Positions 1 to 60,408 of a DNA stretch of 64,000 nucleotides are shown in pieces. The DNA is from Cloeon dipterum (Eukaryota > Arthropoda > Insecta > Ephemeroptera > Baetidae), in the NCBI RefSeq assembly GCF_949628265.1, contig NC_088789.1:10346886-10410885 (forward strand). Direction: 5' to 3'. The position numbers were made by a program, and so were the translations under genes. The notes below the pieces were generated by a model. It had not been told where the DNA came from, searched no databases, and saw nothing but the letters and a program-made list of their open reading frames with translations. How positions within the stretch are numbered: the first letter of the stretch is position 1; every line of letters begins with the position of its first letter.

Positions 1-224
1 TTACAGCGCTCCTTAGGTCAATTTAGGCTTTAACTGAATCCTAAGGGGCGAGGTTATGCATTGGCAACAAGCATTTTCCAGGCTTTTCCAGTATCATTCC
101 TCTTTAAGCCTATTGTAATTTATATTTCTCAAAATTCTACTCATCTGCAAGCAGTTAAGTAGTGTCATGCTTTTTGTGTTACAGAGAATTGTATCTTCCT
201 TAAAGTGGTTGGAATTCACTGGCC

Positions 225-1550
225 ATGAACCTGACCGTTAGGAGAGTTTTCCAAGCTGCTACAAGTAAGAAACGAAAATTAAATGCCTTTGAATATGTAT
301 TAAATATATAAATTGCAAGAAATACAGTTATGACGATACAGTTTGATTTGTGTGAGGATAGTAGAGATTTAGGATCCTACAATGGACCAATTTTAATACT
401 TCTTATTCTATTACCCTCCATAAGAATTGCATTGTGGGTAACAGGATTGTCGCATCCTAATCTCTACCATCCTTAGATGTATGTTACTTTTTCCTCTTGC
501 AGATCTACACGTTCTGAGAGTTCCAGTAGCAGGGCTTAAATATTTCCCACCACCAATATCAGTTGGGGGTAAGAAAAATCGAATTCAATTTTTTAAATAA
601 TGACGTTGATTATAATCTATATATAATATCATCTAATTAAGTATGAACATTCTTATTTACACACATTGTGGTTCCTCACTGTCATTCAACCATTCACAAA
701 TACATATAATATAATATGACGGTACATGATGTGTGAATAGGAACACTTTAAAATTAAAAATTGCATTCCTCTCACTTCATTTTTTAGTAGTTGGTATACT
801 TCTTTGAAAAATCGTTGTTTTTTTAGATATCGACTACCCTGAGAGGAGGAAACTCAAAGTTGTGGATAGACAGCCCCAGTATGGCCCAAATTTTCGTCCC
901 CCAAAAATGACAAAACGTTTGGACCTGATGCGAGGACCTGAGGAATATCATACGTTTTTAATTCACAAACAGTTCGGAATTCAGGTATTGTATATTGTTG
1001 ATTGCTGTTTGCCTGATTTGAAAAAATAAGTAACCTTATAGGCGTTAACTGGAGGCCGTATGAAGTTCAATCATTTTGAGATGGTCCGCTACACCCTTGG
1101 TAGAAAGATTAACACTAACACTATGTTCGCCCAATGGAGATTAGACCCTCCATGGCAGCCAGTCACAAAAAAGGTAACCGAATCATGACCACTTAATGTC
1201 ATGCTAAAAGTCCATATCTTTAGGGTCAAGGTCAGAGAATGGGTGGTGGCAAAGGCGCCATTGACCATTATGTCACCCCACTGAAGGCTGGCAGAATAAT
1301 TTTGGAAATTGCGGGCAACTGCACATTTGCTGAAGTTCAGCCGTGGCTTGAAGACGTTGCCAAAAAGCTGCCATTCAAGGCTAGAGCTGTGAGCCACGAG
1401 ATGCTCAACAAAGAGAAAGAGAAGGAAATCGAAGATGCAATGAGAAATATTAACCCCTACACCATGGAATTTGTCATTCGCAATAACATGGGAGGAGTCC
1501 AAAATTGGATATCCCCTTTCGACAGGAAATGGTTTTGCAAATATGTATAA
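225..1550 (+). CDS. mRpL16: Mitochondrial large-subunit ribosomal protein uL16m
   Basis: Five coding exons: 225-264, 503-568, 827-984, 1042-1173 and 1224-1550, giving 240 aa, the usual size for this family. Every junction is GT-AG and the frame stays open throughout. The product is the mitochondrial form of bacterial L16, which sits near the peptidyl-transferase centre and tRNA-binding site of the mitoribosome. The body contains TKRLDLMRGPEEYHTFLIH, then ALTGGRMKFNHFEMVRYTLG and the hallmark RMGGGKGAIDHYVTPLKAGR, a glycine/lysine stretch that contacts rRNA. The basic N-terminus (MNLTVRRVFQAA) fits a mitochondrial import signal. The ATG at 225 is chosen because it opens this presequence and splices in frame. 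The gene converges on king tubby. Identity is firm from the conserved core. Confidence 0.95.
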
Positions 1551-1626
1551 GATGGCCCATGGCCATTAGTCTAGATATTAAAGAAGTCTTGGTTGAAATT
1601 TTACATTGTTTAATTCAGGTATAAAT

Positions 1627-1632
1627 AATAAA
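1627..1632 (+). terminator. Poly(A) signal of mRpL16
   Basis: A canonical AATAAA lies 77 nt after the mRpL16 stop codon, inside an A-rich stretch. It is the nearest such signal downstream of the gene. Transcript ends were not available, so use of this site is inferred from position. Confidence 0.6.
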
Positions 1633-2345
1633 AACCGCGAAAATTGTGGTTTCTTTAAATAAAAATGAGCAAATGCTTGAACGCTATTTATTGACCACAC
1701 TTCTACTTAGGCAACAGTTGATTAGTATAATATATTATAATGCGTAAGCTCCATTGACCTGTAAATGTGTATAATGCTGACACGGTAATTAATTTATGCA
1801 GCAAAAGTCACTGCTGTCTAACGAACATTACATAAAATAGTACTGATACCACAGATTTATGATATGAGAGGCAGAAAATGCAAAACAGAGATCTCATTTG
1901 AGCGTCGATCATTTATCTCTTTAGTAAATGGACAAAAAATACTTAGAAAAATACAAAAATAAGTCAACACGCAATCCTGCCATTGTATGGATTGGAGCAG
2001 TTAAGGTGCTTGTTTGGTGAGTTTTGTAAGTTCAAGACTTGACGTGTAAAATGTAAGATTCGGTTTTAAGGTCCATCAATCACCTAAACCTAACAAGTTT
2101 CATTTGTCATGTACCACAGGTTGGCTGCATTCGCGACAACCAGGAATTTGCTAAATTTGTAGATCACACACAGCTCCTAAACATCGCAAGGACAGATCAT
2201 AATTTGTTTGCACACCAAAAACATTTCATGCGCCTCTAGCTAGTTTGGTAGGACAAAATTTTGGTGCTCAAAGAGTCTCGTCTAAATTGAAAACAGAGAT
2301 CGAGCTCGACGGATTCAGCGCCACTGACACCAACCAACTCTCAAA
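1633..2345. other. Intergenic / 3' UTR space between convergent genes
   Basis: No coding sequence is seen here. The stretch separates the 3' ends of mRpL16 and king tubby and is AT-rich. On the minus strand the first AATAAA after the king tubby stop is at 1687-1692, which would give king tubby a 3' UTR of about 650 nt. No closer canonical signal was found by eye. Confidence 0.5.
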
Positions 2346-4765
2346 TTATTCACATGCTAGTTTGCTGTCAAAGCTTGAGAGAGCTATGGCGAATGCTTGC
2401 AGAGCGCACATTGGGTACCTGAAGTCCATGGTGAAAACGTCCTCTGCCACGCGACCGAATTGCATGACGATGTAATCAACTGTAAACAAAATAATTTCAA
2501 GGGTCAAGGTGTAAAATTATTCCATATAATTTAAATTCCAAGAATGCTTAGTATTCTTTAAGAAAGAACATACAATAAAACCGTCTTGTGATTGAGTGTG
2601 TTTGGGTCGGTTTTTGCTAACATACTGTCGTTTATGCTTTTAACCCGCGTTTTTCTTAAAACACAGCCGGGGATTTGCAACAATTTTTTTTAGCGGGATT
2701 TATGCAATTTAGCACATTTTCCCCAAATTCCAAGACATGTGCAATTGAACAGTAGAAGATAATTAAATATTTTTTAGTTGGATGGACAAAATATGAATTT
2801 TAAATGGCCAGCTCTAGTAATTCTTATTTAATTATAGAATAGAGTTTAATTAGTATGTAGACAAAGTGATTGTCGTATTTTAAGAGTCACCCCATACCCA
2901 TTGACTTGAGAAAAATAAAAAAGACTAAACTAAACAAAAACTAACTACATTGATTTCACATAATAATGGACTTGAAAACATTTGCTGGAATTTACATACT
3001 CTCTGGCACAAATTATAAACTTTATGGGGATCAATTTTCGAAAAACGTGGAAAATAAGGAAAAACAAAATTGGTGCGTTCCTGTTTTAAAAAAGTGTGGC
3101 ATTTGTGCGTAACAAGCGGTGAACGCATTGCCAAATAGGCAAGCCCTGATTGAACATCATAGTGTCAGTTGACTAAATACACTTACTGTCGCTGTCATGT
3201 ACGATTTGAAAATTCTTGACCGATGCTTGCGTTACTCGACCGTGGAAATTTAGAACGTAGCTCTGGCTGTCATCATTCCATACGGGTGTTTTGTTGTGCA
3301 GTTCAATCAATGAATCCATTTTGCGCCCTTTCCAACACTCTGCAATCCCATAATGTTACTCAATGATTATTTTGAAGATATTAGCTAATACTCACCAATG
3401 AGACTCTCAGCATTATTTTGTGGACTAAATGGCACTCGTTTGTGTTCTGGTGTCATACTTGGCAGTATAACTGTCATTTTTCGTGGACCCTTGAATCCCA
3501 AAACGTTGGTTTCCTGAGCAAACAAATATCAGACTTGTACAGTCTTGAATTGCCAAACTCTCACATAAATCACTGCAGCAACTTCTTGACGAGGTGAGCA
3601 CTTATTGGAGCTGCCATTTTTGCTCGGAGATTGGCCTCCATCGAAGATAGTGAAATGCGTGCCCAGAAGGTTTGAGCGGAGTTTCCCAACAAAGGACTCA
3701 CCCGCCCTCGACAGATCAGTGGGGTCTGTGGAGATGAGGTAATTGCTTGTGGTGCTCTTTTTGCGCTTCCTGGCAGCCAGCAAGAAGACCTATCAATCAG
3801 ACAATGATTGTTTAATCTGCTAGAGAAACTTATCTCATTTCTTAAAATTGGTACTAAATTAAATCTAGAAATTTCCACAACATGCAAAGTTATTTAATAA
3901 ATAGAATAATATTATCTTGTCATCTTGAGAAAAAAATTTAAAAGTTTATCTTACCTTCTTGCCATCATCCCGTTCCAAGTGCAGAAAGTATGTGGGGAAC
4001 AGGCCTCTGTCCATTCCCTTTCGGTCCCTAGTGATTCTGCACTTTACAAGAGCGCCTTGCGGGGCAGGCTCAACTGCAAACTGTTCCAGATTGCTGAGAA
4101 CACCAGATAGCAAGAGTTGTCCACCTCGATCATCTCCTGCACCAGGTGAATCCTACAAAATATTATTATAGTTGGTTTTGAAATTTCAGTGTCAAAGATT
4201 ACAGCTGAATTATAGTAGATTTTAATTATGACTTAACATGGCGATTACTAACCAACTGTGCAAAACTGCCTTCAGATTGGGTTGCATCCATTGTTAGCAA
4301 TTCCTCGGACGGCTCGACGACAGGACTTGATTCATGGTCTTCAATATCTATGTCTTCTTTAGACAACTGCTTTACTGGAGCCGAAATAGGATTTACACTA
4401 TCTGGACTGCCCTCTGCCATGGAGAAGTGCAATGGTCCATCATAGCCTGATTTACAAAAATCATTTAACAAAATGCACTCTACATAACTATTATAAATTT
4501 ATGAAATACCATGAAGTTCCTCGCTCTTAGAATTGGAGCCTTGAAGAACCCATTGCTGCTTTCGAGATTTAGATGACATTGTAGGCCGTGCATCAGAAGC
4601 TAAAACCATTCCTGGGGTTTGCCTCTTTTGCTTTAATCTCTGCTCCATTAGCTGCTTCTATTGACACAAAAGTTGCAGCGTGCTAGATTGAAAACTAAAC
4701 AAATTTTATTTAGGAAAGCGAACCTGTTGGTCCAGTTTTTGCTGGCGAAGCGTCACAGAAGTCAT
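2346..4765 (-). CDS. ktub: King tubby / Tubby-like protein
   Basis: Eight coding exons in transcript order: 4765-4724, 4657-4510, 4446-4253, 4152-3955, 3789-3565, 3513-3396, 3339-3187 and 2479-2346, giving 403 aa. Tubby proteins bind PI(4,5)P2 at the membrane, carry membrane receptors into cilia and can move to the nucleus. The N-terminal 150 residues are low in conservation but keep [15 protein letters not shown] and YDGPLHF, typical of insect king tubby. The tubby domain runs from about residue 152 to the end, with [40 protein letters not shown] and [20 protein letters not shown]. The protein ends in the diagnostic [12 protein letters not shown]. The first coding exon begins at an acceptor at 4798 with 33 nt of 5' UTR, so a non-coding exon lies upstream; a donor at 5257 is a candidate. 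The 707-nt last intron holds a repeat. Confidence 0.97.
2640..3155 (+). repeat. Dispersed AT-rich repeat, copy A (in king tubby's last intron)
   Basis: This segment shares two similar blocks with copy C near 37 kb. One is a GCGGG-ATTTATG...CACATTTTCC block near 2693. The other is the 26-nt motif at 3126-3151 ending in GGCAAGCCCTGATT. The 26-nt motif differs from copy B by about 3 bases. It fills most of the only long intron of king tubby, as expected of an insertion. The exact ends and the class of element cannot be told. No transposase reading frame is visible. Confidence 0.5.
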
Positions 4766-4798
4766 TGTTCTGTTGAGGGGATAATATAGCTGCGATAT

Positions 4799-5859
4799 CT
4801 GAAAAATATGAATGTTTTAGAACTGTTTTAGTCACTTTACTCTGTCAAAGAAGTATTAATAAGTACATAATTGTGTACAATAGTGACGTAAAGTATATTA
4901 ATATACATAATGTAGGTAGCAGCAGCCAAGTTACTGGTATGATACTGTCAAAGTAACGGCAGTGAAGGAACAAATAATAATAAAATATTAAAGCGGATAC
5001 GCAAGACATTAAAGGACAGAGGCGGCCCCGTTAAGTGTCACAAATGAATGTCCAAAAATTTTGACAAACTTGTCTTCCTCTATGGAAGTCTTAGCAACTG
5101 AACTTTTTTAATATTTATCATAATTTGTTTTTTTAAGCTTTCATGTATACAAAATAGCATACATTCAGACTTCATTGAGTAACATTGAGTAAAACAAATA
5201 CATAAACAAAACGATCGTTAATTTTGTTTGCTTTGTTTGAGGAGAATTGCAACTTACAAAAGCGTTCCTGATCTTGATTACGGCGTGAAAACACAACAAG
5301 TTACAGTAGAATCATCTGTCAATTCAATTAGAAAAACATGGCCAAGCAGTTTCATTGATTGGCGTTTAAAAATTCGAATTTTCACTTATGGGCAAGGGAC
5401 AATTGAAGGAATTTACTTTCCGCTTGTTTGATGTTTGATCGCTTTCCGATTTCAATGCCCTCTACTTCCGACTGTGGCGCCTCCTCGATTAACTGTTTCG
5501 GTAATTCAATACCGGTAGATCTTATAATTATGTTAAATTCAATCAGAGAATTGAACATAAAAGTAGTAAAATTAAGTTATTTCTAAATGAATGCTAAGAA
5601 ATTGGAAACATATTACGCAAAAATGTTATGTTAGAGGAAACTGAGGAAATCTTTGCAATATTCTACTGCAGCTAAAATATGTATTTTACCGGTTTAATTT
5701 ATTCAGCATTTTTCCTCAACTTGAGATTCGTACAGCTGTTTGTTATACAGTCCAATGGTGATTGTTGGTTTTCTGGCTTGCGGCTCGTGACAAAGTTGCT
5801 TGCACTACACTTCGTCTTCGTCACTTTAGATTATTTATAGACTTTGGCACGATTATGTC
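4799..5859. promoter_or_regulatory. Divergent promoter region of king tubby and MED9
   Basis: About 1 kb lies between the first coding exons of two oppositely oriented genes, so it should hold both promoters and 5' UTRs. On the minus strand a good donor (TTT|GTAAGT) ends at 5258. Joined to the acceptor at 4798 it would give king tubby a non-coding first exon. Read in the king tubby frame that exon meets a stop with no ATG after it, which supports translation starting at 4765. No TATA box was picked out with confidence. Confidence 0.5.
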
Positions 5860-7103
5860 ATGGATTCAGCTGAACCGAAGACTGTAACTAATGGTCATCT
5901 AAGTGCCGACGAAGTTGACGTCGAGTTTCTACCACTAATCTACGAAATCTTGCGAGGGTAATTACCATGGATTTTTATTATTTTTCGGCTTCATTTTGTT
6001 GCTATTCATACTACATAATAATTATACCTAAAACGTTTTAGAATTGAGCGGGAGTCTCTCGACACTGCCCAGAAACCAAGAGAGTCGCAGGACACAAGCC
6101 TGAAAGTTGTTGAGCTTCACAAGAAGTTGAATCAAGTTCGTGAGCAGGTAATGCAACGATTGCACAGATTAGGGGTGCCAGACAACCAAAAAGCTGCAAA
6201 CTGGAGTTTTTCCATAAGTCCATGTTAAATTTTAGGACCAAAAACCGGAGATCCTTATAACTCCGTGTTTAATTTTCAAAAAACCGAACCGGACACTCCG
6301 GTTCAAGCAATCCCAAAACCGGATATCTCTGGTCGAAAACCAGAGGTTGGCACGAATAGGGGCTGTAGTGCACCTATCACCTTTGTAAACAAATGCATGA
6401 ATATGTAGTCGAATAGTGGCTGGAGGGTTCTCATACCCACTCACTGCATCACATTCGCACCAAATTTAGGTGCGAATCGTGTGAATATACGTAGTTTTCT
6501 TCTTAATTTAAAACTTCCCTCAGCTCATGCGCATTTTAATTTTAAACGAAAATTGCTAATTATGTGTTGTAGATTCACACAATTTTTCACCTAAACTGTG
6601 ATAGACCAAGAATTTTTATATCTAAATCCCATGAACTTCAAGAAATCAGATCAAACCAGCAATTTATTTTTTAATCAGCACTAGAGTGTATTTCAATAAC
6701 AAACTTTTGTACTGTCTGGAACGTTTCTTGACGAAACTGGTATTGTTTCTAAAAGGAATATTTAAAATATTCGTGTCTTGTATTGTTTTTCAAACCTTCT
6801 TGTTATGGTATTGTTTTTCTGAAAAAAAATATTGTTTTGTTATTTGTTAGTTTTTTTTTTCTCTAGAAAAATACTTCTTTGTGGAAAAAACATTAAAAAA
6901 TCAGCACCACCTAATTTTTGGTTTAAAACAACGTATTTTAATTTTGTGAAATAATTTTTCAGGTTCGAAAACTGCCAGGCATTGATTACAACAGAGAAGA
7001 TCAACTGAAGCAACTTGATCATCTACGGAAGCAACTCCGCTTGAAAAGAGAACTTCTCCTGAAGTATCGTAATATGTGCTCATTTGACATTCCCAAGGCT
7101 TGA
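5860..7103 (+). CDS. MED9: Mediator complex subunit 9
   Basis: Three coding exons, 5860-5957, 6042-6147 and 6963-7103, give 114 aa. MED9 is a small subunit of the middle module of Mediator, which links transcription factors to RNA polymerase II in the nucleus. The sequence shows the family order: an acidic start, then VDVEFLPLIYEILRG, a coiled-coil stretch (KPRESQDTSLKVVELHKKLN), the LPGIDY turn, and a second helix rich in Lys, Arg and Leu (QLKQLDHLRKQLRLKRELLL) ending near CSFDIPKA. Length suits the insect proteins. Intron 2 is 815 nt and contains palindromic repeat sequence. The stop codon is only 5 nt before the ATG of the next gene, so the two almost certainly share an mRNA. The ATG at 5860 is the first in frame. 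Confidence 0.92.
6165..6360 (+). repeat. Palindrome-rich insert in MED9 intron 2
   Basis: This stretch is unusually rich in CCGG and AAAACC words for this AT-rich intron. It holds two perfect hairpins. At 6286-6304, GAACCGGA is separated by CAC from its reverse complement. At 6327-6345, CTCTGG and CCAGAG are separated by 7 nt. It begins near AGGGGTGCCAGAC and ends near GGTTGGCACGAATAGGGG, which could be remnants of degenerate ends. It looks like a decayed non-autonomous repeat, but no second copy was found in the window. Confidence 0.35.
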
Positions 7104-7108
7104 AAAGT

Positions 7109-7348
7109 ATGCCCATCCTCCGATTTATCCTGCGATACTTGGCCAACAACGAACAACTCATTTATAGACTCTCTGAGTCAAAACCTGTTAGGAGAGCAGC
7201 ACAGTTAACCATAAGTTTGTTTCACCGAAGTAAAATGCTTCAGGAAGATTTTGAGAAATCAGCTGCAGGAAGACGAGTGATTAAGCATCTTGAGAGTTTG
7301 GCCCATCAATTGAAAGCAATTGAGGAATCGCAGAAGAAGCAGAAGTAA
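7109..7348 (+). CDS. NCBP2-AS2-like small protein
   Basis: A single exon encodes 79 aa, beginning MPILRFILRYLANNEQLIYR and followed by LSESKPVRRAAQLTISLFHR. This matches the pattern of the NCBP2-AS2 family, small conserved animal proteins with an LSES-P-RRAAQL core and a hydrophobic N-terminus. Their role is poorly known. The remainder is basic and Gln/Lys-rich, likely helical (HLESLAHQLKAIEESQKKQK). The ATG at 7109 is 5 nt after the MED9 stop, and the stop is 30 nt before the next ORF. No promoter or poly(A) signal fits in either gap, so translation by reinitiation or leaky scanning from a shared mRNA is the simplest reading. Family assignment is from remembered similarity and is moderately sure; that the ORF is real is better supported. 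Confidence 0.78.
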   Translation: MPILRFILRYLANNEQLIYRLSESKPVRRAAQLTISLFHRSKMLQEDFEKSAAGRRVIKHLESLAHQLKAIEESQKKQK

Positions 7349-7378
7349 CTTTTTCGATAAAGTCCTCAGGTACAGAAA

Positions 7379-8026
7379 ATGATGCACAGAATGTGGGACA
7401 AAGAACCTTTGATTCCGACCTCGTACACCCCGAGATACAAACAAATATTAAAAGCGCCGCCCCAAATTTACTTCAGAGACTTTGTTAAACAACTAGTCGC
7501 ACCCTTGATCCCATCTCCCAAATGCGTACCGTTCAAAGTAACAGAACTGGTGACACCAGCAGTGGCCTACTTTGGGCTTGTGCTGCTCCTGTTCAACTTC
7601 AAATCTGCCAAATCCGATTTCCCCGCTGCTCTGCTATCTGTAACGCTATACATGATTCTGGTGCCAGCTGGAACGTACCTTTTGTGTTTGGCTGGAAAAG
7701 CACCTTTGTCCTTTGCTAAGGTCTTTTCCGTCGTCACAGCCTCACAGATTGGAACTCTGCTGACTCTTCTGGTACCAATTGTAATATCACATGAGAATGC
7801 TTTCAAAAGCCACGTCCCCTTTTTAGTCGCCCTGGCCATTTTCGGTGGACTGACAACTGCTAGAGTTTGTTTGGTCCTGATTGTGGCTCTGCCAGTGCCA
7901 GTGATGCGTCTGATTACAGGCACAGTTGTGGCTCTGACCAATCTGTTCTTCATGCTTTTCTTGCACTTTGCCTTCATGCACCCAACATTCAAGTATGGCA
8001 TTGGTGCATACAAATCAAGTTTTTAA
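7379..8026 (+). CDS. Intronless multi-pass membrane protein, function unknown
   Basis: One uninterrupted ORF of 215 aa. The first 60 residues are hydrophilic and basic with many prolines (TSYTPRYKQILKAPPQIYFR). Four or five hydrophobic spans follow: about residues 59-76 (VTPAVAYFGLVLLLFNF), 83-103 (AALLSVTLYMILVPAGTYLL), 112-131, 143-158 and 166-200. There is no obvious cleavable signal peptide, and the tail is short and polar. I do not recognise the family with confidence. The layout of a soluble N-terminus followed by about five short spans recalls Yip1-type Golgi/ER proteins, but I see no firm motif. It starts at ATG 7379 (a second ATG follows at once), 30 nt after the preceding micro-ORF on the same strand. 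No AATAAA follows it before glomulin. Confidence 0.85.
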   Translation: MMHRMWDKEPLIPTSYTPRYKQILKAPPQIYFRDFVKQLVAPLIPSPKCVPFKVTELVTPAVAYFGLVLLLFNFKSAKSDFPAALLSVTLYMILVPAGTYLLCLAGKAPLSFAKVFSVVTASQIGTLLTLLVPIVISHENAFKSHVPFLVALAIFGGLTTARVCLVLIVALPVPVMRLITGTVVALTNLFFMLFLHFAFMHPTFKYGIGAYKSSF

Positions 8027-8198
8027 CAGATAGATCTGAACATGTCAAGCCAATTTGTAAAGATGTGAGCAGAAGTAAAATATATTAGCTGTTTTAATTT
8101 CAGACTACTTGTCTTCTTTCTAATATTTCTTTTGATGGGCTGTAGATTTGCAGGAGTGTGATAGTTACAACGATTTTCTTTTATTTTTAGGTTTTACA

Positions 8199-9970
8199 AT
8201 GGATATGCCAAATGACTCAAACTCAACCATGAATAAGCTCAAAGAGCTGCTTCTCAGCTCTCAATTTGAAGAAGCTAGAGATCTTTTGAAAGACCCCAGT
8301 TTCATCGAAAGTGCCATAAATTATCCAGAAGACCTATTTGGAATTCTTACTGGCTTCATTTCACCACAAAACCAGGGCCTTAATCCAGCCCTGGTTGAAA
8401 CTTGCCAAGAGATGATGAAGACATTTGTGGAAGACTTGTCTGATCCTGATGTTACACATCTAGTTCTTCTAGGGTACTTGACGTCAACGGAAAACGACGT
8501 TTTGTTTGTGGTCGTGTTACAGTGCGTGGATTCCTGTCTGCAAAAAATGAAAAAAGCCAGAGCGCTTAGAGAGTCCCTTACTTCAATCCAAGTTGCTTTA
8601 AGTGATCTGAGCCTTTGTGAAAGAGAGCAAATTGAGCGTCTTTTCATTGAAATTAGCAAATTCTGCTGGCGTATCATTGACAATATCGACGAAGAAGATT
8701 TTAAAGGTTGATTTTACGGGTTTTGGAAGTATTACAAACTAATCAGTAAAATATTTATTTGTTTTTCTTAATAGAGGCTGAAAAGCAGAAGCAGTGCCTT
8801 GCGACGTTTTTGCTCTCGTGGCTCTTAAATGATGATATACCTCGATCCACCTTGGATGAGAGTATTAAAGCCCTGGCTAAAGTTCTGCCTCATTTAGGAC
8901 ATCCCTTTGCATACTTAAATGAGGCGGGTAGGTGGCGGAAAAAGAAGGGAGCAACTCTTCACTTCTTGGACCAAGTTGAATCACACTGTTGCTATGGAGT
9001 AGGGAATCAACATTTGTTTTTTAACTTTCATGTTCTCATTATTTCTTCTCACAGGTACTGTATTATAATATTTTGCATCACGGCATCTGTTACGAATCAT
9101 TTCCGCAAGTGTACAGCCAGCAGTATTTGTTTGTTCGTCTGGGCGCGTTGTGCTCCACACTACTCTCAAGCCAGAGAGAACTGCAGAAAAAAGGCATTTC
9201 TCTGTTGAAGGATGTAGTGGACAGAGTCGACCCTGGAAGCATCCCTCACACTGTACTCTCCTCAGAGCACTATACTTGCTTATTTTTGGGTCTTTCGCAT
9301 GTTATGTTGGAATGCGAGGATGAAAAATTGCGAGCAGACACGCCTGTCATCTTTAGGAAGTTCATCATGGCGTTTAATGACAAAGGACAGCACTTGATAC
9401 TGCTCCATGGCTACCAGACTATGAAAGATCAAAGTGTTAGAGGCTACATGGTGACAGTAACAAAAGATTTAGTTGTGACGTACAATCAGAGCAGTGACTA
9501 TTTCATGAGACGGTTGCCTGATTTGTTGTACCTGATGCTAACTTTGCCAAAAGAGGTCAGATCAAATCTTCATATGAACGTCAGCACAGTTCTCTGCAAG
9601 TTAAATTTCCTGAGGTATCAGATTACCCATTAGGTCAACAATGATCATTTTGATATAATGATTCAATTCTTTCAGGTATCTTATTACGGTTGATCAAAAT
9701 CCTGAAAACTTCGCGGAATTTCGCAGCATTGCTGAACAATTTTTGAAGCATATTCCCGACGCTTTAAAAAGGAGCAGGGAAAGTGTGAATGAAATACTGA
9801 TCGACGCAGACGAGCTCAGTAAGCAAGAATCAAGTAGAACTTCAGTTGAAGTGGGTGGATCAGTTTTGCCGACTCCTTCTTTTGAAGAGCAAGTGAAGGC
9901 TGCCACATTGTGGCGGACCCAATTAGACACTATTGAGCATGTGTATAATCTATTGATGGAAAAATTTTAG
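8199..9970 (+). CDS. GLMN: Glomulin (RBX1-binding cullin-RING ligase inhibitor)
   Basis: Four coding exons, 8199-8706, 8775-8998, 9055-9614 and 9676-9970, give 528 aa. Glomulin is a helical-repeat protein that binds RBX1 and blocks E2 recruitment to cullin-RING ubiquitin ligases. Family signatures are GHPFAYLNEAGRWRKKKGAT, the FPQVYSQQYLF block, IFRKFIMAFNDKGQHLILLH, and a C-terminal VLCKLNFLRYLLITVDQNP. Exon 2 could be ended early at better-looking donors (8928 or 8932), but those break the frame. Ending at 8998 (GGA|GTAGGG) keeps the frame and retains the RWRKKK segment that aligns with vertebrate glomulin, leaving a 56-nt intron. The ATG sits just after an acceptor at 8189-8190, so a 5' UTR intron or upstream exon is likely. 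The closeness to the preceding membrane-protein gene leaves shared transcription possible. Confidence 0.9.
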
Positions 9971-10059: not shown

Positions 10060-10065
10060 AATAAA
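10060..10065 (+). terminator. Poly(A) signal of glomulin
   Basis: AATAAA lies 90 nt beyond the glomulin stop and is the first canonical signal on that strand. Use is inferred from position only. Confidence 0.6.
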
Positions 10066-10579: not shown

Positions 10580-13500
10580 TCAAGCTTTTCCTGGTCTTGC
10601 CGCGCCAGCATTTTGTTCCCCAAGAGGCTTCACGCCTGGGCTAGATGTCCTATCGGCAGAAGACCTTCCCCTGCCTCCCCTCCTTCCTCTGCTCTTGCGC
10701 CCCGTGCGATTGGGCGTGTTCTCACGCCTGTCCATCTCAAACTGTCCAGTGCTTCCATCATTCTAAATACACAATAAGTCAATCATACCATGCATACAAA
10801 AAATTGAGCGAGAATGCAACTTTACCTGAGCTAGTGATGCTGACGTTGACACTGAAGGTGCTGGAGATGGCGTGTGGCTGGCTGCACTGATATGCTGCTG
10901 TTTCTGCATCTTGTTAGGCTTTGGTCGAGGTAGTTGGGCGCCTGGACTGGCATGTGGAATTAGCCTCAAAACGTTGCCTACAGCCTTTGTTCTGCCTTCA
11001 CGGAAAACCTACACATATTTAAAAATGTACTAAAGCTGGAAAACGCTAAAAACAATGTTTGCCAAAAGATAAAATAAGTAAAGTAAAATAAAAAATAATA
11101 AAGTAAAGATAAAATAAGTAAGTACATTTTATCAAGCCATTTAAAAGCATGCCAATGGTTATTAAATGTTGTGTATTGTTTATTTAAATGAGAAATCATG
11201 TTGGTTTTAATTTATTCTTTGCTTAACTTACCATCCGTTGACCAGGTTTGAGATATTCAGGGTGTTTTATGAACCTGAAGTGGACAAGCGCTTTGTCACC
11301 AGTTCGTAAACAGTCTGCATTCATTGATAAGATAGATGCAGTTTGGCGGATGCTTCCGCAGTGAACTAAAACAACACTGCTCTTCAACGCTACCTCAGAC
11401 CAAATTTATGGTTCCTACCCATTGCCTGATAGCGAGAGCTGATTGTGGTTGGATGGTGTAAAACCAGGATTTCACCTTCAAATTCCCAGCAGGCTGTTGG
11501 GTTTAATGATGGGGCAACCATCACCATGCCTTTCCTCAAGTGAGACCTCTTGATCTATTGTTAAGGAATAAATTTACAGATACTACATTTTAATAAATAA
11601 AGTACTTACTTTTTTGAGAGCAAAAGAAGCAGTCTGTCCACTACGCACTTCACGGACAGGCATCCTTTTTCGATGGATGCTTTTAATTGCAATCGGAGTG
11701 AAATGACCTAACAAATCTGGGCCTAGCAAGAGCGTGTCATTTAACCGGATCGTCCCCGCCAGAGTTGTGCCAGATACCACAGTTCCCACACCCTGTGTAT
11801 TGAGAACGTAGTGAAAAAATAAAACATTCGAGCCTAGATTTACATACAGGGACGCTGTACATGTCATCAATTTGAAATTCAGCTGGCTCATCATCTCTGG
11901 CATTGTTCCGCGTTGTCAGCAGGTTCAAAAACATTTTCAGCAAATCCAAGTTCTCCCCAGAAACGTTGGATACTTGAAAGATTGGACATAACCTGCCAGA
12001 AACATAATAAGTTATTAAGAGCTTTTTTATTCCTAGGGTTATTTCACCTTTCAGAAACAAAATTAGTTGCGCTGAGGACAACATCATCTTCAGATCTGAC
12101 CATGACAGGTACCTTCCTGCACCCTTGAGACTTGAGCACTTTGACAAGCAATCTCAGGGTGTCGGTCAGGACGTTTGGTGGACACATGTCAATCTTGGTG
12201 ACCACCACAAAGACGGGCACATTGAGGGCCAACGCCAGCCCCAAGTGCTCCTTTGTCATGCCAACAATTCCTGCGTTGGCCCCAACCATCAACATTCCAA
12301 AGTGAGGTGCGTGCCCTGTCATGCCAAAGACAGTAGTTTTTAAGTATCGTTCGTGACCTGCCAGGTCGATGAATGTGATGACCTTTGCCGACCGCTCACA
12401 GATGCGGACCCAATCCAAGGAGCCGTGCTCAGGTTTGTTCACAACATTGCCTGAAATAAATTCAGAAATTTAGCCTCTAAGTCTGAAATAATTTATTGCA
12501 ACTCTTTAAAGTATTTATTTATTAACCGACAAAAGGATAAGGAACTATGAGGTATTTCAGGACCATAAAGTAATATGATTATAACAGAAGCTAGATGATA
12601 CTAGGAATTTTAGGGATTACAAGCGAGCAAAATAAATTATATTCAAGTTCAAAATGGAAAACAAATAAGAAAATATACACACAGGATTACACTTTAAAAT
12701 GGAAATCACAAATATCAACTAGTCATTTGTTTACCTATACTGTCAAAGCCCAGAATATCGTTTCCAACTGAGCTTGTTCTTCCTGACTCCATTTCATGTT
12801 TGTGTCTGAAGAGCTTCTGGCGAGCATGTCCCCTGCCGTTGTCCAGCTCTCCATGGGTTAAGACTCCAAGAAGGGTGGACTTTCCCGCGTCCACATTTCC
12901 AACCACAGCCACTCGGATTTCCAAGAAATCCTGCTCATCTAATCGCTTCCTGACCAAGAACTGGCCAGTCAGACCCTTCTCCAGCTGACGTTGACGCAGC
13001 TCCTTGCAGTCAGAGTCAAGAGTGCTGGCCAACGATTTCAAAGTGGCCACTGAGGCCTCAAATTCATCTTCAGCCAAACCAGCCTCGGTGGAATCTGTTG
13101 GATTTTAAATTTACATTTACATTGAGTCAGTCAAGAATATTGAAGATGCACACAACTGTTTTTGTTCAAAGTTTAGCTTGTAAAACAATAAATATAGTAT
13201 TATCTCTCATTATGTGCAATCGATTAATTTAAATGATAACTGAAGCAATTAAGATTATGACTAAAGAAAGAAAAAAATTTGTTTGGTTTTACAACCATTT
13301 TACCGTATATTCTTTTCGCTCTAATTTTGTTTGTCGTTGATAAAATGAAACTATACCTTCTCCGATTCCAATCTCATAAATTGTTTCTCCTCGACCGTCG
13401 TCTAACCTCTCGCGGAGCTGACGCAGCAGAAGATCAAATTGCTCAGAAGTGGGACTGACAAGCGTGGTCTAAAAAACAGAAGAAAAATGATTTATGAAAA

Positions 13501-43500: not shown

Positions 43501-46500
43501 AAACACGTATATTCTTTAATTGCACCGGCCATGCTAATTTATGGTGGATGCAAATTTCCTGATGCCTAACCGCAGGCGCTCGTAAATCTGTTTCGTGATG
43601 GCCAGCGGGAGACGTTTTAATCACGGAGAATAATTAATATGCGTCAGAAAAGTGCAATTTGCGCTCAATTAGCAGTGATGGAATGGCAGCAGTATGATGC
43701 ATCGTAAATCCAGAAAGTCAAAATTGAATATTGAAAATTGAATGTCACGATGTTTTTTCCATTCAAAGCAAACTACTTTTTATGGCGTCGCGCGTGTATT
43801 GCTCAAGGGCTACACATTTCTCAAATATTTACATTTTCATCGCGTTTTATGAGCATGCAGGTCTCGCGTAAAATGTTGCAACGAAACGCAGACTCACGAG
43901 ACTGAATTTACAAGCACAAACAGCCCACGCCCAAAGCTCCATAAAAATAATGAAGTGATTACATTTGCACCGCTCTCGCCTCTGTTTTAATTCGATAACG
44001 AGCGTCTAGGCGGCAAAAAGAGGCTGCCGCCGTCAAGTGCGAGCAACCACTCCGTGACGAACCTAACGGCGCAAGAAGTGCAAAACGACCAAATTGAACT
44101 TGACAATGAGCGGAATGCGCCAAGGCTGAGCTACATCTGCACTTTCACCGCGGGAAATCACTCCATGCCCCGGGAAGGCAATAAAATTTACAAATTTCAA
44201 TTCGTCGGCAGACAAGCGAGCAGCGTGCAAGCTGCAGACTAAATTGCACTAATTTACCGGACAAATTGCTGCCGCCTCGCGTGGTGGCAAGCTTCGCAGA
44301 TCCGACGATGTATTGCATGCCTCCTCTCAACCTTGCCATACAGGAACAAGTTGAAACAGGTACAAATGAAGAGACTGTGCGCAGTGTCAAGGGACACAAT
44401 TATCAGCTCATTAATTGGAAATAAAAGTTTTTTATGACATCGACTATTTAAATCGATAAATAAACTCGAATGTTAAAGGTCAGCCTTTAAAATTGAGGCC
44501 TTAAATCAAAGAGTGACTTTTTTATTCTGTGGGTTATTGCAAGGAAAATTCCTACACGATGTCGATAATTTTTCACCTTTCTGCGTTTATTCAAATTGCT
44601 CAATTCAAATCTGCTTCATGACTGGTTGTATGCTTAAAAAATGCGAGGCTCCAAGCGGCTCTGCTGATGCATTCCCTCCCCTCGCGTTTAAAATTACGTT
44701 AATTTAGCGGACAAATTGCCTCTCGCACAATATATTATTAAGCTTTCAGCCGCACGGGCTGCATCTCAGTTGTTTTGAGAGAAAAAAAAGCGTAGAAAGA
44801 AGGGCCGCCTATATTACGTGCGATTTCGATGTTAAGTGCACTGGGAAGTAATTGCTGGCACCTTTATTTCGCTGCATTAACGCAATTTACGTGCCCACTT
44901 GCAGAGAGCGTCATTCTTTGTCTCTGAATTTATGCAAAGTGTTTGTTAACAAAAGCTGTGATTACGTTTTGATTGTGTTCCTGCAGCGCTTCTCGTTTCG
45001 ACCGGGTGTGCTGCATAAATATTAACCACCGTATTAAAATGCAATTTGACTGTCGATGTTGAGCATGCTTCTTTGTGTTCATCTATTTCGCACGGACTTA
45101 TTTTTATGGTTTCTGCTCTCAGGATATTGAGGTTGAAATCGATCTGACTGCGAACCACTGGGGCCGATTCGAGCTCAAGTTGTGCCCAGTTAACAACCTC
45201 AGACTGGAGGCCACACAGGAGTGCTTCGACAGGTTAGTCGGCTTTTCTCATTAATATTGATGATTAATTAGTCTTCTAACTGGATCTGATCTTTCGCGGA
45301 ATGGATCCCTCGCCAAACCATATTTGACTTTGCAAAAAACATGCCAAAAACGATCAAAATAAAATAAAAAATGGGAATCGGTTGGTTTGTTGTTATTAAC
45401 AAATTTATTAAAAAAATCGAATGTTAGACAAAAAAATAATTGAAAATAAACAAATTATTTTTAATAAAATTAATCCCAGATATCTCACAACATTTTGAGT
45501 GTCTAAATTGCTCATAGCCTTTCACGTAACAGCAAATTTAACAATTAAATTAACACATTAGTAACTTAAAATGCATGTACGTGATGCACACAAACAATTT
45601 TAATAAATAAATTTAACACTATTAACATGATTAAAAAAGGAAACAAAAATTCTGCCGAAATATTTTAGGTATCCTTTGTACATTGCGGGGACGAGGCAGT
45701 CTGACTTCGTGATTCCGTTCGACACGCAGAAGAAGGAGGTGTTCCGCTACAGGGTGCGTCTGCCGCCGTATGTGACGTGTTCGCAGTGCGTCATCCAGTG
45801 GACCTACTACACGGGCAACATGTGGGGCACCTGTCCCAACGGCACCGAGGCCGTGGGCTGTGGCCTGCCTGAGACCTTCCGCAACTGCGCCGACGTCACC
45901 ATCACAACCAGCACCTCCGGACTTCCACCAGCCTTCGTCGAGCAGGACAACCCCTTCCTGTTGTACTACAGGGACTACTCCAAGAAGACCACCAGGACGC
46001 ATGAAGAGTACGCTCTGGAGCCTCTTATCATCAGGTAAGAAATTAATTTGATTCAGCGAAACTTTAAGGGGTTCATAAAAGAACTAGAAGCAAAAAAGCA
46101 GCTAGCACGTAAATTATCTATTTTTTCCTTTGATTGAGTACAAAAAGTTTAATTTAAGCGACAGTTTACAGTGCTTACAGCAAATTATGGGATGGAAATT
46201 CATGAGTAAAGATTTAAAGCTATAACGGTTTGTGTATGCAACTGTCTTCGCACGAGTGTCGTGCAGGTTGCACACAATAATGGAAGTAAATAATGGCCGC
46301 GGTTCTGACTGAGAAAAATAACTTGATCTATTTGTAGGTCTCAAAGATGCAGAGCTACTAGAAGATGGTCTAGAAATATTGGAATGGACGAGTGGTGCCA
46401 GGTCAATTGTCTGCGATACCCCCCTAACTGCCCTCCTGAAATTTGCGAATGCCCGTACGTATATCTCTTAGAACAACTATTTAAAAACGCAATGTATACG

Positions 46501-48252: not shown

Positions 48253-51200
48253 ATGTACTCGCGAATACTGAGAGGGCACAATGTCAATGCAATATGCAGT
48301 GTTTCAAGTGCAGTCCGCTTTCGATCCCATATTAGCGTGGCACCTGACGAAGCCCTAGAAGATATCATCACAAGCAGTAGCACTGTTAGACCATATTCTG
48401 AAGTTCCTGGACCCCGTCCGTTGCCATTAATCGGCAACACATGGCGCGTTCTTCCGTACATTGGTATGTTTCGTTTGAAATTATGTTAAAAAAATTTGCT
48501 TTCATATCACCAAGCCAAATATTCAAAATATTGTAACAAGTACAACAATATTTGTTTTAAATACGGTCAACAAGATTTTAATTTAAAACATTTTGTAAAA
48601 GTAATTGTTTATTATATCAATCATATATGTGTTTAATATTTTTTTATAATTGATGTGTGTAAATTGTGTTTTGCAAAATTACTCATTTGAGATAAGATCT
48701 AAATATATATTCAAATAACATATTATCCTTTAATCAATTTTTTATAAATTTTCTTCATGCTATAGATATTTTATTGTATTTAAAAATTAAAATTCTCTTC
48801 ATCATAAAATCTTGTGACCTACAAGTTTTGATTTTAGAAACTGAAATTATTCAAGACGTCAATGTGTCAGCATTTGTTTTTAATTTAGTAGAATAATATC
48901 CTTTCAAAATATGAGGATATATGCCTATATTAAAATGAGAATGAGCCGACATTGAAAATTACATGACAAAAGCCATGATAAGGGATAATAATTGAAATTT
49001 TTTTCTTAAACAAAGATTTTAAATAATATAAAATATAATTTTAGGCTGCGCATGAAAAATGTTTATGATTTATTAAGTTAAGTATAATTGAAAAAGCATA
49101 ATATCAAATGAAAATTGGAAATTTTGGGAGTAGGTCATTCCATTAGATTGCAAGTTACACACATTATTCGCTTCCGTTCGTTCCTGAGAGATGCATTCGC
49201 TCGTGCACACAGATGTGCCCGTTCTCCCATTGGTGTCCTAGTAAACGGATGGCTTTTTTGCACTTTACTGAGCACGGCACAATGCAGAGACGGGCGAAAG
49301 AGGAGATTCGTAATTTGCTCCAGCTGCTTGGCAATAGAAAGGCGACTTTTATTGCAATTCTTTTTGCTCGACAGCCGCTCCTATCTTCCATTATGCGCTA
49401 ATTTGCAGAGATAATTCAGGGTCAGCCATCCTCACCTCATCAATGTCATTGAGACTAATCTTCACGATTTCGTGTTTCTTGCGAACATAGCGAAATATTA
49501 AAAATATTTCACCAATTTCTATATATATGGTAAAATATTTATACGGTTCAAACGAAAAAAGTTAAATTAATATTTTAACCGTACAGACAAATTTTATACT
49601 ATATGAAAAATAGTTTTCCTACTCCTATCATAAAATCATAGCTAACGCTTGCTCAATCTGGGAATGCCTGCAGCAATTTGCGCAAGCCACAACCTCAAGT
49701 TCAAAATAAATTAAATTATCACCTCCCATTCAATCGGAGAGATACACAATTGTGCACATATCCGTTAGATACGATTTCGACGCACGTGTGCAAATAATTT
49801 ATTCCTTTTGGGTTTATCAACAGGACAATACTCAGTCTCTGATTTGGCAAGGGTGTCCAGAATATTCTACGAGAAATACGGCAAAGTCGTCAAGCTGAGC
49901 GGACTGGTCGGTCGGCCCGACTTGCTCTTTGTGTTTGACTGCGACGAGATCGAAAAGGTGTACCGACAAGAGGGCCCAACGCCTTTCCGACCGTCGATGC
50001 CGTGCTTGGTTGAGTACAAGAGCAAAGTGCGCAGAGATTTTTTCGGTGACTTGCCTGGCGTGGTCGGAGTGTAAGTATGTTAGAGAAGCAATTAGGTTTT
50101 ATAGGCAATTTCACGAGCCATGGTTTGCAATAAAGAAATGTGTGATTTGAGAACTGATTAACTCACTTTTTAAAAATCGCATTAACTGAAATCCACAGCT
50201 GGTTTTCCTCCAATTTATAAAATGAAGCCAAGCTTCTCAATCGAATTATTTTCCAATTTCACAAAAAAAAGCAAAAATTCTTGACTCTTAATTTGAAGCA
50301 AGCAAATTCGATTCTTTAGTCATGGTGAACCGTGGCGGGAATTCAGGACGAAAGTCCAGAAGCCGATTTTGCAGCCAAAGATAGTAAAGCAGTACATAAA
50401 ACCTATTGAAGACGTGACGAATGATTTTATAGACAGGTTAGTTTTTTTAATTCGTATTCTGAACTGTAATTTATGCAAACGTTATATTTAAATTGCTTTT
50501 AGAATGCTGGCCCTGAGAGACGAAAATCTGGAGCTTCCTGAGGACTTTGACAATGAGATTCACAAGTGGTCCCTTGAATGTAAGTTTATTTTAAATTTAT
50601 TATTTTGTGTATTTATTGCACTGACTGAGCTATTATTTAATTTACTCGCATAAATATTTAAATGAACCGAAACAGTGAAATTAGAATTCAGTTAAATTCT
50701 CCTGAACACGAAAATAGAGAAACATATGCATGACTGAGAAGTTCTTTGTAAGTACATGTTCGTGTTGAGAATGTCCCAGGGTTATGCTTGGTACGTTTCG
50801 TAAACACCAAATTATTTACTTACAAACATGCAATTCTTAACAAAATATACGTGCTAGCTGCGCAATTTCACATTTAAACAAAAATACAAAATCTAAATTA
50901 TACAATCTTTTCAAAGCCTATAGTCTCCATTTCGTTTGCATGGTCACCGGGAGTTAAAAGGTGTAATCAGTTTGTAATTGAAAAGGAAGCGGTGCCAACA
51001 ATGCATTTACAGCATATGTGGTAATTTAGGTAATTTTGAGGCAATCATTTTAGGCATTGGCCGGGTTGCCCTCGACGTGCGACTCGGTTGTCTAGACGCT
51101 GCTTCTGGCGAAAATTCCGAGCCGCAGAAAATCATCGACGCGGCAAAGTTTGCCTTGCGGAACGTGGCCGTTCTGGAGCTGAAAATGCCGTTCTGGAGGT

Positions 51201-53077: not shown

Positions 53078-56000
53078 TTATCTCTCTAGGAAACGCAGTT
53101 TCAAAGGTCCGGTTGGCATAAACATTGGCGTGACTTTGTACTGCAGAGGCTCGTGATGGTACTCCACTCTATACTTCTTGACAATCTGCAGAGTTAAAAA
53201 ACATGTTAAGGAAATTCAAAACTTGTAGATGCAATTTACTTTTGCAATTAGGGTCTGAATTTCTAAATCGGCGAACCGCCTGCCCAAGCACATCCTCCTT
53301 CCGTATCCGAAGGGTAGAGAGACGAAGGGATGGATCGGCTTTCGCACAGGACAAAGTCCTGATTCGCCTTGGCACTGAGACGCCTTCATCCACCTTTCAG
53401 GCGTGAATTTCTTTGGCTCGGAGAAGTATCTCTCTTGATTGCTGATAATTAGGTGCTGGAAAACTACCTGAACCTACAAAATTATCGTATTAGAAAATTT
53501 TCTACCGTGAAACTAACAATAAAGAGCAAGTTGAATGGTTCACTAAAAAGCATCAAATCAGTGGGTTCATTATTATTTCTCCTCACTGTAACAATGAAGC
53601 ATGTTCCGTGCCAAAGACTGCGGATTGAAAACAAACATTAATGTTTTTGTGGTAATAGTAGTAAGAGGTCAAGCTAGCTGAAGAGATGACGAAGCATCAA
53701 TGAAGAGAAATCTCGAGGCGAGACAGTAGGTGTATCTTAAGGAGTATAACAAGTGCAGCCGCGTTTTTAATAATAGTGTATCAGTGCACGTCATGAGTCA
53801 GCACCCGCGCTTATGTTTCACGTTCCCCGTGGCTCTTTCTCGTTTAGAGAGCAAAGGAATGGTTTTGTGTGACCCTTTTGTATTGATAGTGTGTCGCACG
53901 GCAGGAGAAAGGAACATAATAATCTCTACCCGCTGCTCTTGGAAAAACACACTTCTCGCACAGGAGAAACTGGGTAAAAATTATGATTGAAGCGGCAATT
54001 CCAGTCACGTAGCATGCAAATCAGTGCTGTCCGTTTGTTATGATTGACGCATGTGATAAATTTCAATTGAATTCTTCTTACTCCTGCTGGGATTTCGTAG
54101 CCTGCTATCACAGTATCGCGTGTCATGCACCGGCCGTTTCCAATCACCACTGGGTACATTCTAAAAAATATAAAAAAAGTTTTATATCACAAAATTTAAT
54201 TATTAAAATAGTTCATACCTAAGCGTTTCTTTGATGCACGCTTTTAAGTAACTAAAGCTATCAACATTTTCCGCATTCAGGTGTGAATCGAAATTTGGCA
54301 AGACCTGCTCGATTTCTCGAAAAAGTTTCTCTTGTTTGTCAGGATTCAATGCCAGTTGGTACAGGATTGATGCAATAGCGGCTGACGTCTATTAGCATAC
54401 ATATAGAAAGAGCAACGTGCAAATATTTGAAAATTTGTTTGAGCTTACAGTGTCAATTCCGACGAGGAACATATCTAGCGCGAGGTTGTACGCAGTTTTC
54501 TTGTTCGTATTTTGCAGGATTCTCTGCAGCAGAGACGATGTGTGGTCCAGTGGACGAGGATTCCTCTCTAGTTCCTCCATTGCAGAGTCAATGTATCTAC
54601 TCGAAACACTAAAAAAATTCAAATTTAGTTTTTTTAAACCAAAAAGTAAACATTTAAAAATCACCTTCGAATAACATCTAGGGCACTGATATATTTATTC
54701 CAGGTCGGAGTTGGGAAAAGTCGCCAAAACGGGATTTTCAACTCCAAGTTACCGACGTTTTTGAAAAACGTGCCCACTGCGTCGATCATCCTCTGTGCGT
54801 CGGACTCAGGGGCCAGGTATGGGGCAAGGCACCCCAGCCTCTTGTCCAAGGCCACTCTCGCGATTGCTGTAACAACGGTCAAAGTTATACAATTTTCTTG
54901 CACCTATAACGCACTCTTTTGCGGTTTTCCCACGAAGTGATGCAAGTTTCACACTACCGATCTTAATTGGGTTTCTTTCCCATGATCTACTTTCTTGCTG
55001 ATAAAAGTTAAAATTAAGCACAATCTCATTTGTTATTAACATTATCTTAATATTACGTTATATTACCATGGTAAGAGACAAATAAAAATGAATTGAATTG
55101 AAAAAAAGTATTGTAATTGAAAGGAAGAATTGAAAATCTGTTCTTAAAAAATATGTTTAATGTGCTTTATATTATGCTAACATTTTAGTTTATGATTTTT
55201 CTCGTTAAAACTATATAGTAAATTGTAATTGAAGTACTTTTTCATATAAATATTTACTTGCAACAGCTCAGTTTTTTATTATATCTAACCAATAAGTGTC
55301 AAGAGAACTAGATTAGACTTTGTCCTGAGATTTCTAGTAATTTTGGATTTATTTCGGCCAAAGTTTTGCTTAAAAATTGAATAATATGTTGTTGCCAATA
55401 AAATATTATTATAACTTACATTCAAGGGACCATTTATGAATTTCGTTCATAAAATTTTCTGGCACATCGTCGTTTTCATCTCTAATGGCTTGAATTCTGA
55501 AAAAACTCAATTAATCACACATGTATTCTGCGAAGAATCATTAAAGACAGTTTGGCGATGTTGCATCTCACAGGTGTGAATCGATTTAGGTCAAAAGATG
55601 CAATCAACTCACACCTCATCTTTAATTGCAACAATCAACACTAGCTAACATTTATCGATGTTAGAGGGCGTTCCACTGATACACATACGCGGCTATATAT
55701 ATAATGTTTGCTAAACTCGACATCAGCTCTACATCGAGTTCAAAGAATAGCTTGAGGCTCAATTGTTGTTATGAAGCACATATTGAAAGCAGAGACAACT
55801 AACTGAAAAGTAACTGTAGCATATGTATGCTAATATATGTTCAATTATACATACTTATGTTCAATTATACATACTCACCGGTTGACAAACGCGTCTGCAG
55901 TCTCTTCGATGGGCCTTACGTACAACTTAGCTGTTCGCGGCTGCAACATCGGCTGCTGGACTTTTGTGCGAAAATTATACCAGTTCTCACCATGTCTGTA

Positions 56001-59000: not shown

Positions 59001-60408
59001 AAAAAGTAGCAAGCAGAGCAGAAATTCCTATTGTGTCAATCCGACTGTCGGCAAAATGAGTGACGTCTGGCTCTTAGAGTAATGAACTGCAACAAATTCG
59101 GGAAGGAAAGTGTGCCGAACAAAACAACATAATATCTTCAGACGAATTGTTCCCATAGAAAGTTGTGACCGCAAACGTCAGTGTAAAATTGGCTCTAGCG
59201 AATTCTATGAAGCGAGGAGCCGCCTCTCTCTCGAGCGCGCGCCCGCCGCACAGTTATGTTGCAAGGCCCGTTTATAAAAAACACATTCGGCTTTTTCAGA
59301 AACTCAGCTTTTATGGGCAGATATGTGGTGCTTGAGGAAACGAAGCTGCCAAACCGCAAGTTAATTTGTCTGCGCGAGTTTTGTAATCACTCGCCAGACC
59401 TTAGCGGAGAATCACTGTGACGGCGCGTTTTTGTTATGTCTACGGATGAATCAAATTTTGCTTTCATTCGGCTTATACTCGGTAGTCTCCGAAGAAAGGG
59501 ATAAATCAAGGATTTTCCAGCCTTGAGAAGATGACAAGCTCTCTTTTGACCATCGCCGAACAATGTATCTATTCTGACGAATAGTTGCGAGAGTGTGCTA
59601 ACGCTTATTGTGTCAAATGAAAACCACAGTAAAATCCCACATTGCCCTCACTGACAATGAGGCATGTGGATGGTGTTAAGTGGTGGGAATTTAACGCGTT
59701 GGCTTTATGTAACTTCGTGAAATATGAACTTTACATTAGATTTGGCAATAGCAGTTAAAATAACCTGTCCAACTTTGATAAATGAATGCGTTTATAATTT
59801 ATTTTTTTAAATTTATCTCTGGTTGCTTAAACAAATATGGATTATTGTCAAAATCAATTTAAACAAACAGCAAAGATGATTGTGGTGGAGGTGATGCGTT
59901 ATTGAGAAACAAATGACGACCTGTAGCTTATTACGCAAGTAATCATGCACGCAGTCATTTGCCTTGGGTTATGCAAATGCAACCAACCGATAATCGTTTT
60001 ATAAGAACCATGCATCTTCTTGAAAAAATAACGATTCCACCTGAGACTGGTAAAATCCTACGCTTATATAAAAAGGTTCGTGATCCTCTCCAAGGCTATG
60101 TGCCTCTCCCTTAAATAGATTTTCTACGCAGCAACGAAGCATAGATGAAAAGGAGAGAGAAAATAATAAATAATGAATAAAAAAGCCATCTCACCGACGA
60201 AGGGCAAGAAGCGCCACGAATTTCCCAACAGGGGGAGCGCCCGCGGGCCGGGAATGCTGGAGTACGGCTTGACTCGGCGTTCGTCAACGGCTTCGGCGCC
60301 TTCATGGGCGACCTGCGGCGGTTCCACCAGGACGCTGGCGTGCGGCGCCTTCACCACCTTGGTGCTGCGGCTGTAGGCCCTGCTAACGATCACCCTGGCC
60401 GACAGCAT
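53078..60408 (-). CDS. Mitochondrial-clan cytochrome P450, CYP301B1/CYP49A1 type
   Basis: Ten coding exons in transcript order: 60408-60195, 57226-56980, 55995-55879, 55496-55420, 54866-54665, 54608-54449, 54388-54219, 54160-54082, 53467-53240 and 53185-53078, giving 533 aa. The N-terminus (MLSARVIVSRAYSRSTKVVK) is a good mitochondrial presequence, followed by SIPGPRALPLLGNSWRFLP. Motifs present are LYEQFGPIVKLSNILGRPDM, HGENWYNFRTKVQQPMLQP, I-helix ALDMFLVGIDT, KETLR (ExxR), TPERW and heme loop FGYGRRMCLG with Cys482. Exon lengths and phases match CYP301A1 almost exactly (214/211, 247, 117, 77, 202, 160/166, 170, 79, 228/225, 108/111), proving common descent. The VVFQHLIISNQERYFSEP segment also recalls CYP49A1, so I leave the name open. 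No endogenous substrate is known to me. The tail-to-tail arrangement with CYP301A1 leaves 299 nt between stops. Confidence 0.94.
55836..55875. repeat. Perfect 20-bp tandem duplication next to a splice donor
   Basis: Two exact copies of TATGTTCAATTATACATACT abut each other. On the gene's strand the first copy starts at intron position +4 of the exon 3 donor. Each copy includes a GTATGT word that resembles a donor. The perfect identity suggests a recent duplication. Confidence 0.9.
57227..60194. other. Long first intron of the minus-strand P450
   Basis: A 2968-nt intron with no supported coding sequence. Composition is mixed, with GC-richer patches near 58190-58700 and 59170-59420 that could hold regulatory sites. 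CYP301A1 also has its longest intron first (1360 nt), so intron 1 may carry control elements in both paralogues. Confidence 0.5.

Follow-up and report, generated by a model that had tools for sequence, protein, structure and literature searches.

Between positions 5860 and 8026, the plus strand of the 64-kb window (the whole stretch of DNA analysed here) carries three consecutive ORFs, which code for MED9, a likely homologue of NCBP2AS2 (ORF2) and a likely homologue of YIPF3 (ORF3). The MED9 stop codon lies 5 nt from ORF2 and the ORF2 stop codon 30 nt from ORF3. The locus is quite probably a compact polycistronic unit of the kind known from flies, in which one promoter would give rise to an mRNA for MED9 and ORF2, in part also for ORF3, translated mainly by leaky scanning. 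The three encoded proteins are unrelated: the first belongs to the transcription machinery, the second is very small and conserved, and the third is probably a membrane protein. The features of the locus are:

5860-5957, plus strand: MED9 coding exon 1 (98 nt), donor AGG/GTAATT, placed by the Pfam Med9 match of the joined coding sequence
6042-6147, plus strand: MED9 coding exon 2 (106 nt), placed by exon structure and splice-site scoring
6148-6962, plus strand: MED9 intron 2 (815 nt), of which two dispersed repeats make up around half
6963-7103, plus strand: MED9 coding exon 3 with the stop codon TGA at 7101-7103, placed by the Med9 match in the genome and exon structure
7109-7348, plus strand: ORF2 (79 aa), likely NCBP2AS2 homologue by BLASTP and shuffle test against the human protein
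7379-8026, plus strand: ORF3 (215 aa, intronless), likely YIPF3 homologue by BLASTP and shuffle test against the human protein

The coordinates confirm what the initial annotation reported of the three ORFs, their order, strand and 5- and 30-nt spacing, and its identification of the first ORF as a spliced MED9 holds as well. Joined from its three coding exons, the MED9 coding sequence is 345 nt long (114 aa and a stop codon) and matches Pfam Med9 with an E-value of 3e-22 over the entire profile (positions 1-80 of 80), at 78.9 bits versus a curated cut-off of 26.9. MED9 chains in the PDB match the product at 1.2e-12, with two chains aligning up to residue 113 of 114. The Med9 family has a single match in this genome, to exon 3 only.

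The second ORF had been proposed to be a NCBP2AS2-like micro-ORF, and the comparison with a provisional sequence of human NCBP2AS2 agrees (BLASTP E-value 6e-9, 16 of 34 residues identical). The score has a z of 13.1 and was reached by none of 1000 shuffles, which in all such tests were made in blocks of 20 residues. The sequences used for the four human references (NCBP2AS2, YIPF3, YIPF4 and YIPF1) were all provisional, and two were incomplete. ORF2 is thus likely a NCBP2AS2 homologue by sequence, and it has no match among the curated models and structures of Pfam (E 1), the PDB (E 1) or NCBIfam (E 10). Stretches fitting a short pattern of ORF2 were found in viral contigs (17) and prokaryote contigs (147), and no relative could be confirmed among them. 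The motif common to ORF2 and human NCBP2AS2, searched as a degenerate DNA pattern, was absent from the viral contigs; its single match, in a Tuberibacillus contig, was taken as chance. According to PMC13326166, human NCBP2AS2 is of essentially unknown function, except for a reported induction by hypoxia in tumours and a secretion that promotes angiogenesis.

For ORF3, the comparison set was YIPF3, YIPF4 and YIPF1. Against a part of human YIPF3, 42 of 180 residues are identical (BLASTP E-value 3e-7), and the score (z 9.5) was reached by 0 of 1000 shuffles. With YIPF4 and YIPF1, z was -0.2 each and 556 of 1000 shuffles reached each score; NCBP2AS2 as a control gave a z of 2.1 (48 of 1000 shuffles). 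ORF3 is therefore likely a homologue of YIPF3, unlike YIPF1 or YIPF4. It has no match in Pfam (E 1), the PDB (E 1) or NCBIfam (E 10), and of three stretches in viral contigs that fit its short pattern none was confirmed. A single-sequence structure model is helical and too poor for use (mean pLDDT 57.5, pTM 0.32). The intronless membrane protein described initially is accordingly present as an ORF and can be refined to YIPF3-like, its putative membrane nature following from the likeness to YIPF3 and the look of the sequence.

ORF2 has a single match in its own genome both as protein and as DNA, and ORF3 likewise has one; thus, if the two are expressed, they are expressed from here. In these searches and in that for Med9, every candidate from the first look was scored, the first look itself acting as the filter.

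The reading frame of MED9 differs from that of ORF2, and ORF2 and ORF3 share a frame with two in-frame stop codons in their spacer. Given these frames and stops, a simple read-through fusion is ruled out for MED9 and ORF2 as well as for ORF2 and ORF3. ORFs this close are not expected by chance. Counting both strands and including the real ones, the window has 27 ORFs that start with ATG and are 79 codons or longer, or 0.00021 starts per nt per strand. By chance, 0.0013 such ORFs would be expected to begin within 6 nt of any chosen position, and 0.0002 ORFs of 215 codons or more within 31 nt. None of the Rfam families reaches its gathering score in 5500-8300, so this interval is without a catalogued RNA element.

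A poly(A) site together with a promoter does not fit into the 5- and 30-nt gaps between the ORFs. Since the spacers have no such room, MED9 and ORF2, and probably ORF3, would share a common message, probably at least in part. The initial annotation had argued from the same lack of room, and its argument stands for the spacers themselves; it leaves space for a promoter inside MED9 or ORF2 and for alternative splicing. Shorter transcripts could end at variant poly(A) signals within the locus, namely AGTAAA at 7229, GATAAA at 7356 in the spacer between ORF2 and ORF3, and ATTAAA at 7447. Between 5600 and 10300, ATTAAA also occurs at 6892 and 8864 and AGTAAA at 8074 and four places behind it. The only AATAAA in that interval lies at 10060, behind the glomulin gene that follows ORF3.

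A promoter inside the locus leads to a different reading, in which the units are largely separate and overlap: MED9 would have its own promoter, and a second one in intron 2, exon 3 or ORF2 would place ORF2 or ORF3 first on their messages. Such added transcripts have precedent, as in 114 of 159 dicistronic fly loci one or both genes have a monocistronic mRNA as well (45 for both, 69 for one), and another 45 of the 159 pairs are apparently expressed from dicistronic mRNAs alone (PMC4528330). ORF3 would also be hard to reach by scanning, with five earlier ATGs from 5860 on (5860, 5891, 7074, 7109 and 7235). Dispersed repeats (about 6165-6352 and 6666-6887) take up around half of intron 2, however, and a long-standing promoter is less to be expected there. 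A search with the intron gave 40 scored matches out of 72 candidates, one being the intron itself, two falling on the first repeat (query positions 6-193) and 37 on the second (507-728); the match counts are lower bounds. The matches lie on contigs C1 to C5. On balance, we regard largely separate units as somewhat unlikely.

The sequence establishes the three ORFs with their order, spacing and frames, and makes their identities likely; a shared mRNA, the position of its promoter and the route of its translation are what we infer. In this preferred polycistronic reading, a single promoter upstream of 5860 would drive the transcript, and removal of the two MED9 introns would leave a mature mRNA coding for MED9 and the NCBP2AS2 microprotein, with YIPF3 on the same mRNA in at least some molecules. 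As the context of the MED9 start agrees poorly with the fly consensus CAAAATG, some ribosomes would bypass it and initiate at ORF2. Fewer would get to YIPF3, whose start context is near CAAAATG, and YIPF3 may also draw on an extra transcript made from an internal promoter or by alternative splicing.

The start contexts fit this order loosely. At positions -4 to -1, MED9 has none of the four bases of the fly consensus CAAA, ORF2 has one and ORF3 has three. Among all 1082 plus-strand ATGs of the window, 27% have no match and 10% have three or four, so the order of the contexts may be due to chance and is weak evidence. The MED9 start has a G at both -3 and +4, which makes it an adequate start by the general Kozak rule. 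On the spliced mRNA, the only ATGs between the MED9 start and ORF2 are those at 5891 and 7074, and the only one inside ORF2 is at 7235. With three of four CAAA matches, the last equals the ORF3 start, and thus few scanning ribosomes would get to ORF3. Out-of-frame ATGs in MED9 and ORF2 are not significantly depleted (1 versus 2.70 expected, P 0.16, with a codon pool to which glomulin contributed just its first 507 nt).

Termination and reinitiation after MED9 is less favoured than leaky scanning in our analysis, since a review quotes a prediction that upstream ORFs of more than 55 codons prevent reinitiation (PMC4705651) and MED9 has 115 codons including the stop. The same review describes reinitiation as particularly efficient in mammalian cells. 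A small ORF at the MED9 start bears on ribosome passage as well:

5855-5887, plus strand: putative 10-codon upstream ORF that overlaps the MED9 start in another frame

This ORF needs an mRNA 5' end upstream of 5855; if transcribed, it could carry ribosomes past the MED9 start. Farther upstream, the ATG at 5755 opens an ORF of 11 codons. On the minus strand, a divergent ORF of 58 aa lies at 5382-5558, upstream of MED9; it matches nothing in Pfam at 0.01. If this ORF is real, a two-way promoter may occupy the interval between it and 5860.

Splicing could also decide which cistron is offered to the ribosome, a possibility compatible with the polycistronic reading. The candidate is:

7107-7369, plus strand: hypothetical optional intron removing all of ORF2, donor AAA/GTATGC, acceptor CTCAG/GTACAG, both with a rank of 0.911

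Use of this intron would place YIPF3 directly after the MED9 stop, and joining MED9 exon 2 to the acceptor at 7370 would fuse YIPF3 in frame to MED9 residues 1-68. The junction from exon 2 to 7370 is indeed open, in frame and without a stop, and the acceptor before ORF3 scores 1.34 versus -2.75 and -0.18 for the two MED9 acceptors. Splices that disrupt one coding region account for monocistronic isoforms in FlyBase (PMC4528330). A rank of 0.911 is nevertheless common, since some 290 donors and 310 acceptors score higher on the plus strand of the window, and the candidate donor at 7107 has an A at -1. Moreover, the consensus used for scoring was not trained on this genome, and it ranks real sites poorly (MED9 acceptors at 0.654 and 0.842, one glomulin donor at 0.28 or 0.883). 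Both the optional intron with YIPF3 directly after the MED9 stop and the in-frame fusion appear very unlikely.

Downstream, ORF3 is followed after 172 nt by the ATG of a glomulin gene:

8199-9970, plus strand: glomulin gene, from an exon search, Pfam PF08568 (2.3e-9) and PDB glomulin 4f52 (1.5e-14)
8199-8706, 8775-8974 (or 8998), 9055-9614 and 9676-9970, plus strand: glomulin coding exons, from the exon search
8065-8190, plus strand: hypothetical intron in the glomulin 5' leader, donor rank 0.964 and acceptor rank 0.997 by the same splice-site consensus

The glomulin ATG is 8 nt past the acceptor at 8191, which ranks 0.997 among the 3461 AG sites on the plus strand of the window. Because so strong-looking an acceptor precedes the ATG, the glomulin leader, if the acceptor is used, may start within or behind ORF3, or farther up. 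The donor at 8065, 38 nt past the ORF3 stop, ranks 0.964 among 3209 GT sites of the same strand and is the sole donor above 0.95 between 6471 and 8190. Together with the single AATAAA behind glomulin, these two sites would suit a four-gene unit, itself compatible with the polycistronic reading, in which glomulin shares the pre-mRNA and has a leader exon ending at 8064 behind ORF3. On the other hand, a leader reaching to 8064 would contain two upstream ATGs whose common frame overlaps the start of glomulin, the AGTAAA at 8074 or an AATATA at 8079 could be the poly(A) signal of ORF3, and a separate glomulin promoter may lie in ORF3 or behind it. We consider a four-gene unit unlikely.

Elsewhere in the window, 1224-1547 on the plus strand holds an exon of the Ribosomal L16 family (Pfam 3.1e-13), and 45631-46035 an exon of the lytic polysaccharide mono-oxygenase family (LPMO_10, 4.4e-6). 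A GTPase exon lies on the minus strand at 12047-12469 (GTP_EFTU, 3.8e-13), which we take, with the neighbouring minus-strand ORFs, to be GTPBP1-like. ORF pieces at 49769-50071, 54395-54694 and 60127-60669 look like cytochrome P450 by eye and have no Pfam match at 0.01.

If the NCBP2AS2 relative is made from the MED9 message, its expression would be coupled to a Mediator subunit, and what a knock-out of MED9 does would need separating from what a knock-out of the NCBP2AS2 relative does. Were the gene order old, the question of how unrelated proteins stay on one animal mRNA could be tested at this locus.

We take the fly genes MED9 (CG42517) and CG42518 to have been split from one gene model. 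In Drosophila, the insertion P{lacW}MED9-SH0499 is entered under both MED9 and CG42518 (PMC4978919). A footnote to Table 1 of that paper explains double entries as insertions at sites where genes overlap, the MED9 row belonging to another listing. For CG33785 and CG33786, a neighbouring double entry, PMC2276209 describes a dicistronic pair. The MED9/CG42518 entry, however, indicates overlap only, and the double entries ACC/Nup44A and cbt/ush are not called dicistronic in the part of PMC4978919 that lists them. That the MED9-NCBP2AS2(-YIPF3) unit predates the split from flies, with start choice and the optional ORF2 intron setting the output of microprotein and membrane protein, seems quite unlikely. 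The initial annotation considered the set undescribed, and the open-licence literature indeed yielded no description of MED9, NCBP2AS2 and YIPF3 together; for the first pair the claim may be too strong in view of the fly entry.

Polycistronic mRNAs are uncommon in animals and well documented in flies, and the locus is a candidate further case of this accepted class, the polycistronic reading being probable. FlyBase counts 159 dicistronic, 7 tricistronic and 2 tetracistronic loci in Drosophila (PMC4528330). Like those loci, the one described here combines at least two conserved ORFs of the same strand, separated by short spacers. Its spacing falls in their range (-34 to 319 nt where only polycistronic mRNAs are made), small polypeptides are over-represented among them, and about 82% are without similar partners (PMC4528330); MED9 does not occur in the main text of that paper. 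A closer parallel is Drosophila sloth1/sloth2, where small ORFs in different frames are separated by a 5-nt spacer and the first start is poorer than the second; its authors present data that they take as support for leaky scanning (PMC9681215). That pair encodes two related mitochondrial peptides, whereas the three proteins here are unrelated and the first is spliced. Judging by its title, the report of Kanamori et al. 2010 describes three proteins made from one insect mRNA by context-dependent scanning, and according to the review cited above this tricistronic mRNA is clearly translated by leaky scanning (PMC4705651).
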